8,288 nt of DNA from Candidatus Thorarchaeota archaeon (GTDB taxonomy: Archaea > Asgardarchaeota > Thorarchaeia > Thorarchaeales > Thorarchaeaceae): contig JAEOUL010000312.1 of the NCBI GenBank assembly GCA_016839345.1, forward strand, positions 1-8,288, read 5' to 3'. Of the stretch, positions 1 through 8,208 are shown piece after piece (position 1 is the first letter of the stretch; every line of letters starts with the position of its first letter). The position numbers were made by a program, and so were the translations under genes. The notes under the pieces were generated by a model. The model had not been told where the DNA came from, searched no databases, and saw nothing but the letters and a program-made list of their open reading frames with translations.

Positions 1-340
1 GTCGTTCAAGGAGAAGGTCTGCAGTTTCAAAACCAATATCTAGCATCTCGCGAGCGGCTTTGATTATCTTAGTTGCTGTAGTTTCACCAATTGAGCCAGC
101 TGCTGCAAGCTCGCCGGGTGATGCAACCGCGATAGCCTCAACGCTCTTGTATCCGGATTCAGCTAGACGTTTTCCGATTGCGGGTCCTACACCTGGAAGA
201 TCCGTAACTTCAATTCCAGATATTCCTTCGTCGCCTCCAACATCTTCAAGTGTTATTTCTCCTTCTGCGCCTTCAAATTCCTCGTAATCTAATTCCTCAT
301 CTTCTTCATCTGCTTCGTCTGTCTTCTTCCTCGGTGCCAT
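1..340 (-). CDS. radA: RadA recombinase, N-terminal part (runs off left edge)
   Basis: RadA is the archaeal RecA/Rad51-family recombinase, which forms filaments on single-stranded DNA and carries out strand exchange in homologous recombination. Only the first 113 codons are visible. They comprise a basic start (MAPRKK), a very acidic segment (about residues 7-38), and the family's N-terminal helix-hairpin-helix domain. That domain has the first hairpin DLPGVG at 47-52, then SVEAIAVASPGEL, then a second hairpin region leading into TATKIIKAAREML. The segment ends in DIGFETADLLLER, which matches the RadA linker entering the ATPase core (GFETADxxLERR in relatives). The Walker motifs lie outside the window. 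The ATG at 340 is preceded by an SD site GGGAGGT with a 7-nt gap, and a TATA-like box lies further upstream. The gene follows the Roadblock gene on the same strand after 143 bp and probably has its own promoter. The acidic stretch before the domain is longer than in many RadA proteins. Identity is near certain for this length of sequence. Confidence 0.93.
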   Translation of the reverse strand, partial: MAPRKKTDEADEEDEELDYEEFEGAEGEITLEDVGGDEGISGIEVTDLPGVGPAIGKRLAESGYKSVEAIAVASPGELAAAGSIGETTATKIIKAAREMLDIGFETADLLLER

Positions 341-4027: not shown

Positions 4028-6193
4028 CTAAATCCAGTCACCAGTTTCAAGCTTTCGTGGTATATAATCATCAGTCAAGTACTCAAAGCTATGACTAGCG
4101 AAAGCCTGTATCTCAGCTTTCTCTTTTAATCTAAGCATGAGTTCAAGATCTTCAACCCAAGGCTTGTTTCTCTTAACAAAGGGTTCTTTGAGCATGTCCT
4201 TGACTCGTTTTATGTCAGTAGGTTGCATAGGAATTCGAACTGCTTTTGGAATCTTATACTCATCAAGGTCTCTGCTAAGGACTCCAAGGAGTTTGAGTTC
4301 TGGTGTTGCAATGAATGGAGACTCATAGCTGAGCCGTTTGCTACCTCTAAGGAATACCGAGTAGATATAATGTCCATAAGGATCAGAGTCCACAAGTGCA
4401 AAGGCAGGAATCTCAAGCTCTTTGACTAGCATCTTCAGAAACGCTCGTGTGGCAATATCACCTGATCCCTTTCCTGTGAGTACAATGCATGGTTGTCGAT
4501 TCCAGTATTTGGCTTCAGCCAAACGCATCACTGCAGCATCTTTTTCAGAAAGTATGATAAATTCTGCATCACTCTCGATAATCTCAAGTTGGTCAAGGAA
4601 AGGAGTGACAGCCCATCCTCCAGTTCCCATTTTTGTTAAATCTATGAGGTCTCCACCATCTCTAATCGTGACTCGACCCATAGCTGAACCCCTCGCCGAT
4701 GCTACAACATGAATACTATCTCTTGTTGTTTGAATCATCGCAGCAACATCTTCGATAATTTTGTCACTATACTTTTGCTCTCTGAAGAGGTTGACATCAC
4801 TATAGAAGACCTCTCGTTTTGTGGCATGCAGGTTGGACTTGAGGAGTTTGAATACAATTTCCATGACTCTTGCTGTTCGAGTTGCATCAACCACGGATGC
4901 AAGAGAGTGATATGGTCTTGAAATGGTCTTCATACCTAATAACAAAAGATCACGTATCTCATCCCAAACGATATTATCTCCACTCCTGCTAGGAATATCA
5001 AAGGCAGGTCTTCCAGTCATCATTGTTTCATTTAGAATATCAAGTGCAGTATCGACGATTCTCTCAGTTGTGTCATCTACTGTTAGGTTCACAACCTCAA
5101 CTGTTTCAATAAAGGGTATAGCTTGTTCATCCGTCTTTGGAATTTTTGTTTTCTTTTCTGCAGCAGCCCATTTCTCCTTCATTTCAGCAGCAAATTCTGC
5201 GACAGCTGTTGGAACTGGTAAACCAGATTCTTTCTTGATTGGTTTCGGTTTCTTTCTCTTAGTTGGGGTCTTTGGTTTCTTGGCAGGTTTCTTTCGAATC
5301 GGTGTTTCCTTTGGAGGTGCCTTCTTTGGGGCTTTCTTTGCAACAGGTTTCGTGGGTACTTCTTTCTTCTCTGGCTCTTCCTCCTCGGGCGGCTTTTTGA
5401 CTTCTGTTTTTGGCTCGATTATTATTGGTTCTCCTGTCAGAAGTGCCATTTCTTGAGTCCGTACCAGCTCTTTTGCAGCAGCGACTATCTTTGTGGCTTT
5501 TGCTGAACTAAGACCATCAACCTTTCTAGCTACATTTTCAGGTGAAGCTCGAGCAATTCGAGCCACGGAATCATAACCTGCTCGCTCCATGGAAAGGGCG
5601 AGCTTTGATCCAAGACCAGGTATATCGGTCATAGCCAATCGTGGAGGAGCATCTTCAAAATCTTGTTCCTCTACAGATGGTGTAGATGGTTCGGTTGGAG
5701 CTTCGCTTTTCTTAACTAAATCTTTAGCAGCGTCAATGAGTTTCTTTGCACCAGCTTCACTTAATCCATCTACCTTTTTAGAAATTGAACTTGACCTTGC
5801 ACGTGAAATTTTCTCTACAGTTTCATATTTTGCTTTAATGAGTTTGGTTTCTAACTTATGTCCAACACCAGGGAGTTGCTTTAAACTGAATGCACTCTCA
5901 GGCAATGGAGGAGGAGTTGCTTCTTTCTTCTTCCTTGCTGGTTTCTTACTAGCTGCAGGTTCTTTCGTGATAGGTTTTTTCTTTTCAGTTTCTTTCTTCT
6001 TTTTGGGAGTCCTCTCTTTTGCAGTTGGTTTCTTTGGTTTACTTGGAGTCTTCTTTACGCTTGTAGATTTCTTCGTTGGCTTCTTCACAGAAGTCTTCTT
6101 CTTTGTAATCTTCTTTGACTTGGTTGGACCAATTACTTCTCCAAGGGTTGCTTGAACGGTTTCTGGCTTCTTCTTTGATTTCTTGCGGCTCAA
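4028..6193 (-). CDS. top6A: DNA topoisomerase VI subunit A (Spo11-like) with long HhH-containing N-terminal extension
   Basis: The catalytic, DNA-cutting subunit of topoisomerase VI, a type IIB enzyme that passes one duplex through a transient double-strand break in another. The core occupies about residues 356-721. The winged-helix active site is TKREVFYSDVNLF with catalytic tyrosine Y464. The Toprim fold has E550 (ILSEKDA), GKGSGDIATR (574-583) and the acidic pair D602/D604 (VDSDPYG). The usual length is roughly 350-390 residues; here 721. The extension consists of a lysine/threonine/proline-rich tail (1-95), two helix-hairpin-helix domains (about 102-162 with LPGVG 107-111, and 186-248 with IPGLG 191-195), and a second Lys/Pro-rich linker (about 261-322). 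The HhH domains resemble the RadA N-terminal domain. The start is TTG at 6193, overlapping the top6B stop as TTGA, with SD GAGGGAGGCG 7 nt upstream, so translation is probably coupled. The core call is secure; the role of the extension (extra DNA binding) is inferred. Confidence 0.93.
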   Translation of the reverse strand: MSRKKSKKKPETVQATLGEVIGPTKSKKITKKKTSVKKPTKKSTSVKKTPSKPKKPTAKERTPKKKKETEKKKPITKEPAASKKPARKKKEATPPPLPESAFSLKQLPGVGHKLETKLIKAKYETVEKISRARSSSISKKVDGLSEAGAKKLIDAAKDLVKKSEAPTEPSTPSVEEQDFEDAPPRLAMTDIPGLGSKLALSMERAGYDSVARIARASPENVARKVDGLSSAKATKIVAAAKELVRTQEMALLTGEPIIIEPKTEVKKPPEEEEPEKKEVPTKPVAKKAPKKAPPKETPIRKKPAKKPKTPTKRKKPKPIKKESGLPVPTAVAEFAAEMKEKWAAAEKKTKIPKTDEQAIPFIETVEVVNLTVDDTTERIVDTALDILNETMMTGRPAFDIPSRSGDNIVWDEIRDLLLLGMKTISRPYHSLASVVDATRTARVMEIVFKLLKSNLHATKREVFYSDVNLFREQKYSDKIIEDVAAMIQTTRDSIHVVASARGSAMGRVTIRDGGDLIDLTKMGTGGWAVTPFLDQLEIIESDAEFIILSEKDAAVMRLAEAKYWNRQPCIVLTGKGSGDIATRAFLKMLVKELEIPAFALVDSDPYGHYIYSVFLRGSKRLSYESPFIATPELKLLGVLSRDLDEYKIPKAVRIPMQPTDIKRVKDMLKEPFVKRNKPWVEDLELMLRLKEKAEIQAFASHSFEYLTDDYIPRKLETGDWI
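5450..5890 (-). repeat. Two tandem RadA-like helix-hairpin-helix domains in Top6A
   Basis: Residues about 102-162 and 186-248 of Top6A are two copies of one domain. Matching segments are QLPGVGHKLETKLIKAKYETVEKI and DIPGLGSKLALSMERAGYDSVARI in pattern, then VDGLSEAGAKKLIDAAKDLV and VDGLSSAKATKIVAAAKELV. The period is about 84 codons. Both carry the two glycine-containing hairpins expected for non-specific duplex or junction DNA binding. The same layout occurs at residues 46-100 of the RadA at the left edge. Confidence 0.82.
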
Positions 6194-8208
6194 TCAAATT
6201 CGCCTCCCTCAGCTGTGATTTCATCATCGAGCGAAATATCTGCGATAAGATCAGATCCAACGGTGTCAGTTTCTGTTTCTTCTTGGTCAGCTTGAGTTTC
6301 AAAACCTGTAATCGAATCCCTTAACCTACTTGCTATCATTTCAGCATCAAACTTAGTTTTTGTCTTTCCATCATTTACAATACTTACTAGACTCTGTGCA
6401 AATTGGTCTGCATACATTGCCAATATTCCTGCACGTTTAGCCTTCCTTTGTGCAGTTTCACGTCTTGTAATGAATCTCCTAAAACGCCTTCCTGCATCTT
6501 CAAGTGCTAGTTTGATTTCACGTATCATCACTTCATCTTCGGCGAGGGCTTGTTTACTCTGACCCTTGAACATAACGTGAACGTATGCTCCAGCAACATG
6601 GATGAAGACCATAAGAGGACCCCGAGGAATTCCATTATCAAATGTTGTTACTTTGTAATTCTTCCAGTTTACAGATGCGGTGGCTTTCCACGTAGCACAG
6701 TCACTATTATCTCGAAGTTTAGGTACTCTATTTACAAAGCGCCAAAGAACCATTGGAGCAGAGGTGGCTGGTTTGATTTCTCCTCCATATGCAATACAAA
6801 CTTCAACTGCAAAGGAGAGACCTTTGCCAGAGGTGGGTTTTCGCGTTACCGCAGTCGCGAAGTCTGGATTGTAAGCCATTTGTATTGTCTGCTCAAACAC
6901 TTCTTCACCAACGGGAACAACTGTGTCAGTAGGTGGAGCAATATAGTCTTCACTTGAGAAAGCCCGATACAATAACTCAACTTCGGTCTTTGATAATGTG
7001 TCTGTAGGAGTACTCATCTTAAGGTCATCTAGATGACGTCGTCTAAGGTCTTTACTTGCATTAGAAACAATTGTCCGAGCTTTATTTGTGCTCATTCGAC
7101 AGAAAGCTTTTGTTAAAAAGCTTCGAAGGTCAGTTTCTCGAGTTTCTCGTAGTAAATCTTGGAACTCACCTATTCTGATACTTGCTGGGTGGGGTTGGGC
7201 ATATTTTGGTTCGTCTGGAAAGACATTTACTCTTCTTGGATAGATGTGGACCTCTCCATAGGGATCAATGAAGATGATAGTAACATGTGAGTTGAGAAGA
7301 GAGGCCATCTCATTGTAGATATCAGCATATCCTCGCCGGTACTGAATGTTCAGATAACATAACCTGATGTATGTACCATGATGAAAAGGAAGGTCCATAT
7401 CAATGGGACCTCCTACATGGTCCTTGGTATTAGCAGTAGTTGTGTAGAAGTTAGTCACTGTTGCGGCATCAGAATTGAATCTCTTTGAGATTGTGAAAAT
7501 GGGTTTTCCAGTTGTGTTCTGTGCATCACTAAATGCTGATGGTGCACCAAATCCTTGACTGCCACGAGTTTGGCGCAGTTTCTCGGATTTGCTTGAAGCC
7601 AGATAAATTCCAAATTTTTCTAAATCATCAGGAACCATACCAACTCCCGTATCGAAGCACGTGAATTCATAGACTTTGAATCCTTCTTCATCATCGATTG
7701 GTACAAGATCTGGCATTTGTACTTCTTTAAGCTCAATGACCACGAGAGGTTCACGTTTGTTCAAAAGAGTGCGTAACGGAGCTACGAATTTCCTGAATTC
7801 TGTCATTCTTTCGTCAATTGTATCCTTTCTTCGAGGTGGAATCTCAACCTCTTTTCCTGCCTTCACGTCACGCTCCAACTGCTTACTCAAAGCTATTGTG
7901 TCAATCTGCCCTTCCTGAAGTTTGACTCGCACATCTTCGATAATCTTTGAATCTAGTTGCGGCTGAAGACGTGGACGTCGATTGGTCTTCCACCACCAAC
8001 TCTCTAATGCGTCAATTGCATTATCCAGAAACTCAATTGCATATTGAGTATGTTTATTCAACCCAGTCTCAAAACCAACAAGCTGAGTTCGTTTACGCAT
8101 GAACTTGGCTATAGTACCCTGTTTGATATCACCAGAATCTGATGAGGTAGGTACAGGTTGGGCTTTTGGTTTGGTAGATTTAATTGACTTCTTTTTTGAC
8201 GGACTCAA
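6190..8208 (-). CDS. top6B: DNA topoisomerase VI subunit B (GHKL ATPase)
   Basis: The ATP-driven gate subunit of topoisomerase VI, 672 residues. It dimerises on ATP binding and drives the A-subunit cleavage cycle. Seen in order: the N-terminal strap TIAKFMRKR (32-40); the GHKL N-box EFLDNAIDALES with E59 and N63; G1 box FDTGVGM (D186, G188, G190); and G2 box GSQGFGAPSAF...TTGKP (216-236). An H2TH-like segment follows (about 360-450, including APPTDTVVPVGEE). The transducer domain contains FAVEVCIAYGG (466-476), RFVNRVPKLRD (490-500) and FKGQSKQALA, which holds the probable switch lysine K552. Residues about 75-152 are an insertion between N-box and G1 that most relatives lack. The tail (about 638-672) is acidic. 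The start is TTG 8208: the frame has a TGA just upstream (8215-8217) and GGAGTGAT sits 5 nt before the TTG. It is co-directional with and overlaps top6A, the usual archaeal order. Confidence 0.94.
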   Translation of the reverse strand: MSPSKKKSIKSTKPKAQPVPTSSDSGDIKQGTIAKFMRKRTQLVGFETGLNKHTQYAIEFLDNAIDALESWWWKTNRRPRLQPQLDSKIIEDVRVKLQEGQIDTIALSKQLERDVKAGKEVEIPPRRKDTIDERMTEFRKFVAPLRTLLNKREPLVVIELKEVQMPDLVPIDDEEGFKVYEFTCFDTGVGMVPDDLEKFGIYLASSKSEKLRQTRGSQGFGAPSAFSDAQNTTGKPIFTISKRFNSDAATVTNFYTTTANTKDHVGGPIDMDLPFHHGTYIRLCYLNIQYRRGYADIYNEMASLLNSHVTIIFIDPYGEVHIYPRRVNVFPDEPKYAQPHPASIRIGEFQDLLRETRETDLRSFLTKAFCRMSTNKARTIVSNASKDLRRRHLDDLKMSTPTDTLSKTEVELLYRAFSSEDYIAPPTDTVVPVGEEVFEQTIQMAYNPDFATAVTRKPTSGKGLSFAVEVCIAYGGEIKPATSAPMVLWRFVNRVPKLRDNSDCATWKATASVNWKNYKVTTFDNGIPRGPLMVFIHVAGAYVHVMFKGQSKQALAEDEVMIREIKLALEDAGRRFRRFITRRETAQRKAKRAGILAMYADQFAQSLVSIVNDGKTKTKFDAEMIASRLRDSITGFETQADQEETETDTVGSDLIADISLDDEITAEGGEFD
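6201..6210 (-). promoter_or_regulatory. Shine-Dalgarno site that sets the top6A TTG start
   Basis: Minus-strand GAGGGAGGCG, inside the last codons of top6B, ends 7 nt before TTG 6193. It supports TTG as the true start and re-initiation after the overlapping top6B stop. Confidence 0.75.

Follow-up and report, generated by a model that had tools for sequence, protein, structure and literature searches.

A stretch of 8,288 nucleotides from a Candidatus Thorarchaeota archaeon (contig JAEOUL010000312.1 of assembly GCA_016839345.1; hereafter the window) encodes a subunit A of DNA topoisomerase VI (Top6A) in which an intact catalytic core is preceded by a long N-terminal arm that carries two double helix-hairpin-helix domains, (HhH)2, flanked by basic linkers. 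Related long Top6A proteins with two to seven such domains were found in most genomes of the thorarchaeal class, and we consider it somewhat better than an even bet (probability roughly 0.55) that the arm holds duplex DNA and raises the processivity, affinity or salt tolerance of the enzyme.

To characterize the protein of 721 amino acids (aa), we analyzed its domains and catalytic residues. Pfam placed both TP6A_N (3e-19) and TOP6A-Spo11_Toprim (8.3e-53) above their cut-offs, while Y464, E550, D602 and D604 were invariant in 41 aligned sequences, the window's own included; the corresponding motif patterns were matched in 38 of the 40 long frames fetched from other loci. The NCBIfam PRK04342 equivalog models also matched (best 2e-87, 293 bits), although below their own cut-offs (465 for the best). 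The solved structure closest to the core was the Top6A chain 2zbk (1.3e-62), whereas a solved Spo11 matched far more weakly (2.8e-05); a canonical Top6B adjoins the gene, and the tree described below contains no Spo11 row. A full-length AlphaFold model (mean pLDDT, i.e., predicted local distance difference test score, of 49; 19 sequences, near-identical in the core) was set aside for the core. Together, these results bear out the intact Top6A core of the original prediction, and the A–B pair is predicted to form a complete type IIB topoisomerase (topo VI).

The original prediction had also proposed a supported start codon, a frame that is not a chance read-through and about 355 extra N-terminal residues. 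A Shine-Dalgarno-like motif does precede the TTG start, which overlaps the stop codon of Top6B by four bases (TTGA). Chance read-through is unlikely, since the same N-terminus recurs in other loci, at least two HhH copies were found in the window and in all 36 fetched frames longer than 600 aa, and the ratio of nonsynonymous to synonymous substitution rates (dN/dS) in the HhH part is low, i.e., 0.06–0.15 in six overlapping pairs, values that are rough because dS exceeds 1. An internal translation start near residue 320 is disfavored by the conserved N-terminus and the HhH conservation. The extension is therefore real, but its size has to be revised, because the nearest HhH-less Asgard relatives have Top6A frames of 408–416 aa, which puts the gain at about 310 residues.

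At the N-terminal end of the arm, a short conserved peptide is followed by a lysine-rich linker; at least two (HhH)2 domains come next, and another linker leads into the Top6A core. The two basic tails that had been proposed are thus present on either side of the HhH pair; the arm linkers are predicted to be disordered in structure models, and their sequences vary strongly in the alignment. In the HhH domains, the GxGx[KR] hairpin is kept in 86 of 93 copies. The net charge of the arm, with its boundary set at a fixed 300 residues for six frames, is positive in 34 of the 36 fetched frames (+16 to +67, compared to −16 to +8 for the core) and about zero in both proteins with seven copies.

Pfam recognized HHH_5 in two stretches of the window's protein (2.2e-17 for the whole protein), and the (HhH)2 fold is further supported by predicted helices and by superposition on the N-domains of RadA (~1.2 Å over ~60 residues), albeit with weak Foldseek E-values (~0.01–0.06). 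Only one Foldseek match for the HhH part reached E ≤0.001, a NusA chain at the top rank, and tandem SAM-domain chains were also present. When the candidates already in Foldseek's list were re-checked with VIA-align, RadA/Rad51 N-domains again occupied most of the top rows, here tied with a polymerase theta helicase domain. Using sequence comparison with solved structures, the best single-stretch match of the HhH pair was the RadA N-domain 1pzn (1.9e-11), while by whole chain it was topoisomerase V (1.4e-15, a score that sums several repeats; best single stretch 7.5e-10). A RadA model applied to the window's Top6A found its best stretch at model positions 6–67 of 316, with 51.6 bits against a cut-off of 259. 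We keep the description of these domains as RadA-like.

The number of HhH copies differs between proteins. Among 37 long frames (the 36 fetched frames longer than 600 aa plus the window), 31 have two copies, three have four, one has five and two have seven; the numbers for L085, L104 and L105, which run off the edge of their loci, are minima. For six proteins, the Pfam counts (7, 5, 7, 4, 4 and 2) were the same as those obtained with our own HhH profile in every case. Neighboring copies can be nearly identical: copies 1 and 2 share 92% identity in L090 and 97% in L094, and copies 2–4 of L083 are 79–83% identical. Given such near-identical neighbors, the sequences indicate that the array grows by in-frame tandem duplication.

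As read from the match list, 43 of 47 thorarchaeal-class genomes contain a long Top6A. Loci were fetched for 40 of these, while G201, G209 and G220 hold contig-end fragments assigned by match pattern alone. The four fetched frames that are not among the 36 above comprise L112 and L113, which run off the edge (L113 with one HhH copy), one frame with an unreadable stretch and L114, which lacks the arm and whose frame begins 57 bases from a contig end; none of the four exceeds 600 aa. No long A was found in G195, G207, G213 and G223 (4/47), of which G213 and G223 are small; since G195 and G207 are not, a real absence is possible in some of them. Genomes of the class also harbor a short Top6A (~350–380 aa; 40/47) and a divergent third kind (35/47), with all three together in 27 of the 47, and a B of its own usually adjoins each kind in the loci that were fetched. 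Our HhH profile detected no copies in 20 short and 17 third-kind Top6A rows. Gyrase/topo IV A (PF00521) gave no match in 46 of the 47 genomes, in agreement with the gyrase absence reported for Thorarchaeota (PMC9348778), the sole match in the class being G208:C269:7923-9038.

Across the phylum, a Top6A match was present in 211 of the 227 genomes surveyed. With our HhH profile, the arm was not found in 50 distinct A genes of other Asgard archaea (52 rows, which include two repeat reads of a gene and the incomplete L059 and L070), in a survey that took the best matches, so that second Top6A matches of some genomes fell below the list. The best Asgard matches outside the class have frames of at most 506 aa, a few of them fragments, which is too short for an HhH pair. 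The profile's one weak match in the other-Asgard loci (0.006) was a 251-aa open reading frame (ORF) of L065 that is not Top6A. The window's own protein is in the database, and named relatives among the best 120 of 289 database matches were mostly Thorarchaeota. Within Asgard, we therefore reject the idea that the arm is an ordinary feature of archaeal Top6A, and the claim that the extension is not general holds there.

We also examined descent using a core tree of 106 rows. Long A formed one clade (Shimodaira–Hasegawa-like approximate likelihood ratio test [SH-aLRT] 100) inside Asgard Top6A and joined three Asgard genomes with plain Top6A (SH-aLRT 83), while the short A and the third kind formed separate clades; this is a quick tree, with long branches on three reference chains and on the third-kind clade, and its deep joins are unsure. 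Among solved structures, the long core is nearest to Sulfolobus Top6A (2zbk) and the short core to that of Methanosarcina (2q2e). Judged by this placement, the long core is an ordinary member of the Asgard Top6A lineage, and the arm would therefore most simply have been added to the ancestral Asgard enzyme, with two other topo VI systems beside it.

Known topo VI enzymes (Sulfolobus shibatae, 2zbk; Methanosarcina mazei, 2q2e; Methanocaldococcus jannaschii, 1d3y) have the same winged-helix and Toprim core, the catalytic Tyr, Glu and DxD, and an adjoining Top6B, but their A chains, of 369–389 residues in 2q2e and 2zbk (301 in 1d3y), leave no room for an HhH arm. The arrangement is thus unlike that of the characterized enzymes, as had been suggested. 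No published description of it was found by a search of titles and the beginnings of abstracts on topo VI, Asgard and HhH, in which few subscription papers or preprints were covered, and the available portions of two topo VI surveys (PMC11302465, PMC9348778) neither mention an HhH-Top6A nor contain the word "hairpin." In topoisomerase V, a type IC enzyme of Methanopyrus kandleri, a topoisomerase is likewise joined to a tandem series of (HhH)2 domains. However, its catalytic domain is unrelated and is reported to precede 12 (HhH)2 domains, of which three carry lyase sites (PMC9489208), whereas the long thorarchaeal Top6A carries two to seven on flexible linkers ahead of a type IIB core, and the profile match between the two proteins is limited to the HhH part. 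In the topoisomerase V literature, tandem (HhH)2 arrays are called unusual (PMC9489208) and topoisomerase V is reported from M. kandleri only (PMC7614492). The N-terminal domain of RadA/Rad51 is of the same (HhH)2 kind, but the window's Top6A has no RecA-type ATPase. Plant topo VI with BIN4 and RHL1 is also described as a topo VI with extra parts (PMC7614492); these accessory subunits are separate proteins, likened here by description.

The N-terminal tail is variable except for its short conserved peptide. Of the fetched frames, 36 are not cut off at an edge; 33 of these contain Q-x-T-L and one Q-x-S-L, the two without it being the frame with the unreadable stretch and L114. The full pattern is Q-x-[TS]-L-x-x-h-h, and its hydrophobic end is present in 29 of 35; this end is lost in 4/6 proteins with more than two HhH copies, compared to 2/29 with two, which is only a hint, as these proteins are few and related. 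We scored the peptide as a possible PCNA-interacting peptide (PIP) box, based on 12 thorarchaeal PIP motifs (5 from FEN1 and 7 from NreA, with RNase HII C-termini left out). In 30 of 35 long proteins, Q-x-[TS]-L ranked first among PIP-like sites, and it outscored shuffled versions of its own tail (the fraction of shuffles that reached its score was 0.004 in the median and 0.43 at worst). Conversely, its median score was 6.5 compared to 17.9–25.3 for thorarchaeal PIP boxes, and the aromatic pair is absent. The best sites in 1038 other ORFs had a median of 4.8 and a 95th percentile of 9.9, the latter exceeded by the peptide in 6/35 proteins; the window's own peptide, at 4.3, falls below that median. 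A candidate PIP box in Top6B (DI[KR]QGTIAKFM) was rejected by eye, as it aligns with the N-terminal stretch of ordinary Top6B (the short B of L116), a stretch termed the strap (PMC13040014).

We then considered what the arm might do. In topoisomerase V, the tandem (HhH)2 domains are reported to be a processivity factor, with lower activity when repeats are fewer (PMC9489208); topo VI of M. mazei is described as distributive (PMC5922973); and the N-domain of RAD51 touches duplex arms via lysines (PMC12360782). From these precedents, we infer DNA binding and processivity; the position of the arms in the complex is likewise presumed. The HhH domains are probably DNA-binding and, together with the basic linkers, would hold duplexes regardless of their sequence, with the hairpins contacting phosphates. 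From one strand-passage cycle to the next, the two arms in A2B2 would leave the complex anchored to the same DNA or to neighboring duplexes. Whereas the studied relative is distributive, the enzyme may thereby gain in processivity, affinity or salt tolerance. The original prediction had let the HhH domains either hold or sense a second duplex, a crossover or a junction, and it is the sensing that has become less supported. An HhH pair that recognizes such a structure (or the T-segment as second duplex) and licenses cleavage or strand passage there would accord with the reported preference of M. mazei topo VI for DNA crossings (PMC5922973), with the RuvA and XPF chains that weakly match the HhH profile (0.007–0.03) and with the RAD51 D-loop, in which the N-domain, a structural match of the HhH domains, holds the donor duplex arms (PMC12360782). 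However, crossing sensing in M. mazei topo VI has been assigned to Top6B elements (PMC5922973), and the long disordered linkers suggest no fixed geometry. Since copies run from two to seven and include near-identical recent duplicates, general and scalable duplex holding is favored over recognition of one geometry; a basic array that varies in copy number and sits on flexible linkers suits such holding better than it suits the sensing of a single branched structure, which we regard as unlikely.

Alternatively, the HhH domains or the N-terminal peptide may bind a partner such as RadA, PCNA or chromatin and so place topo VI at sites of replication or recombination. RadA lies within the stretch of 21 of the 39 named loci (some loci end before its place), RadA N-domains are among the best structural matches of the HhH domains, Q-x-[TS]-L is kept where the rest of the tail varies, and topo VI is reported to co-purify with NucS, PCNA and RFC in P. 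abyssi (PMC4929162). We nonetheless doubt this explanation, because the PIP-like scores of the peptide lie well under those of thorarchaeal PIP boxes and for the most part do not stand out from the best sites in other ORFs, while the hairpins keep their DNA-binding residues. It would be more surprising still if the arm were a nearly neutral fusion kept by descent: linkers do vary strongly and the copy number changes, but the low HhH dN/dS in six pairs, the retained hairpin motif and an HhH pair in 37 of 37 frames longer than 600 aa make such drift very improbable. Duplex holding by the arm thus remains our preferred reading.

The features of the window are listed in Table 1. The Top6B partner is recognized by PF09239 (4.9e-42, above cut-off) and NF003218 (342 bits, cut-off 274), while HATPase_c_3 (19 bits, cut-off 25) and TIGR01052 (299 bits) stay below their cut-offs. 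On the minus strand, Top6B and Top6A are followed by an amidohydrolase. Of the genes farther along, those for a zinc-ribbon/TPR protein and a membrane protein are on the plus strand, and the roadblock and RadA genes are on the minus strand. This gene order recurs in many loci but not in all (L018, L025 and L031 differ). A membrane-protein-like frame at 993–1652, with a weak PAP2 Pfam match (0.045), stands beside the long pair in many loci. A same-strand Top6B is present in 32 of the 40 fetched long loci, and none was found within the available stretch of the other eight; in G002, the long A and its B are ~0.6 Mb apart. RadA is often found near the long pair, whereas the neighborhood of the short topo VI pair includes FEN1, at a distance of ~6–9 kb, in 4/6 genomes searched (G003:C2, G005:C26, G190:C45 and G218:C68).

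Table 1. Features of the window, with positions on the 8,288-nucleotide stretch and the basis of each assignment
Feature	Positions	Strand	Basis or remark
Top6A with N-terminal HhH arm	4028..6193	-	721 aa, TTG start, stop included
Shine-Dalgarno-like GGGAGG	6203..6208	-	9 bases 5' of TTG start; read by eye
Conserved N-terminal peptide QATLGEVI, residues 14-21	6131..6154	-	Q-x-[TS]-L in 35/37 frames (36 fetched + window)
First lysine-rich flexible tail, residues 22-97	5903..6130	-	sequence; pLDDT mostly ~30
(HhH)2 domain 1, residues 102-164	5702..5890	-	Pfam, own HhH profile, predicted fold, structure comparison
Linker between HhH domains, residues 165-186	5636..5701	-	pLDDT <50 for most of it
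(HhH)2 domain 2, residues 187-249	5447..5635	-	Pfam, own HhH profile, predicted fold, structure comparison
Second basic linker, residues 250-322	5228..5446	-	sequence; mostly pLDDT <50
Conserved helical segment between arm and core, residues 323-350	5144..5227	-	alignment; helix 329-350 in full-length model
TP6A_N (winged-helix) domain, residues 438-496, with Tyr464 (4802-4804)	4706..4882	-	Pfam; invariance in alignment
Toprim domain, residues 545-715, with E550, D602, D604	4049..4561	-	Pfam; alignment
Top6B partner, 672 aa, lysine-rich N-tail	6190..8208	-	transducer present; GHKL boxes read by eye
RadA N-terminal part	2..340	-	gene runs off window; frequent neighbor

Several further observations concern other topo VI proteins of these archaea. 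The third Top6A kind (L135–L154) has its own adjoining B and keeps LRDFYY, but D-x-S replaces the Toprim D-x-D in 18/18 proteins matched by pattern. In G001, locus L153 carries a short-type Top6B with no short-type Top6A listed, on a contig (C1) that makes up nearly all of the 3.2 Mb genome. Two other-Asgard Top6A proteins of ~472 aa (L058 and L061) have an N-terminal ubiquitin/SUMO-like domain (PF11976, 1.5e-07 and 2.6e-08, with PF00240 above cut-off); other Asgard Top6A of ~470 aa have an extension of similar length, for which the one tested, L046, gave no Pfam match. Finally, two giant Top6B frames of ~2290 aa (L171:4941-11816 and L172:6517-13407) contain RAD51D_N and HHH_5 after the transducer, HHH_5 being just below cut-off in L171 and above it in L172, with a second A–B pair ~11 kb away. 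Our own HhH profile had no match in either giant frame, so the HhH-like parts there are Pfam assignments alone.

Taken together, these results allow a tentative picture, one on which we would not wager, in which three topo VI enzymes came to share the type II topology work of Thorarchaeota. The ancestral one would have acquired an HhH array that can expand and so become a processive, DNA-leashed machine, in convergence with topoisomerase V, and its N-terminal peptide may dock it on the replisome or at a site of recombination linked to RadA. What the sequences show is a solution similar to that of topoisomerase V, fitted to an unrelated enzyme of type IIB in most genomes of an Asgard class, and the natural variants with two, four, five and seven copies would allow the effect of the arm to be titrated. 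The ubiquitin-like domain on some Top6A and the large extensions on some Top6B further suggest that Asgard topo VI, a family related to Spo11, is modular.
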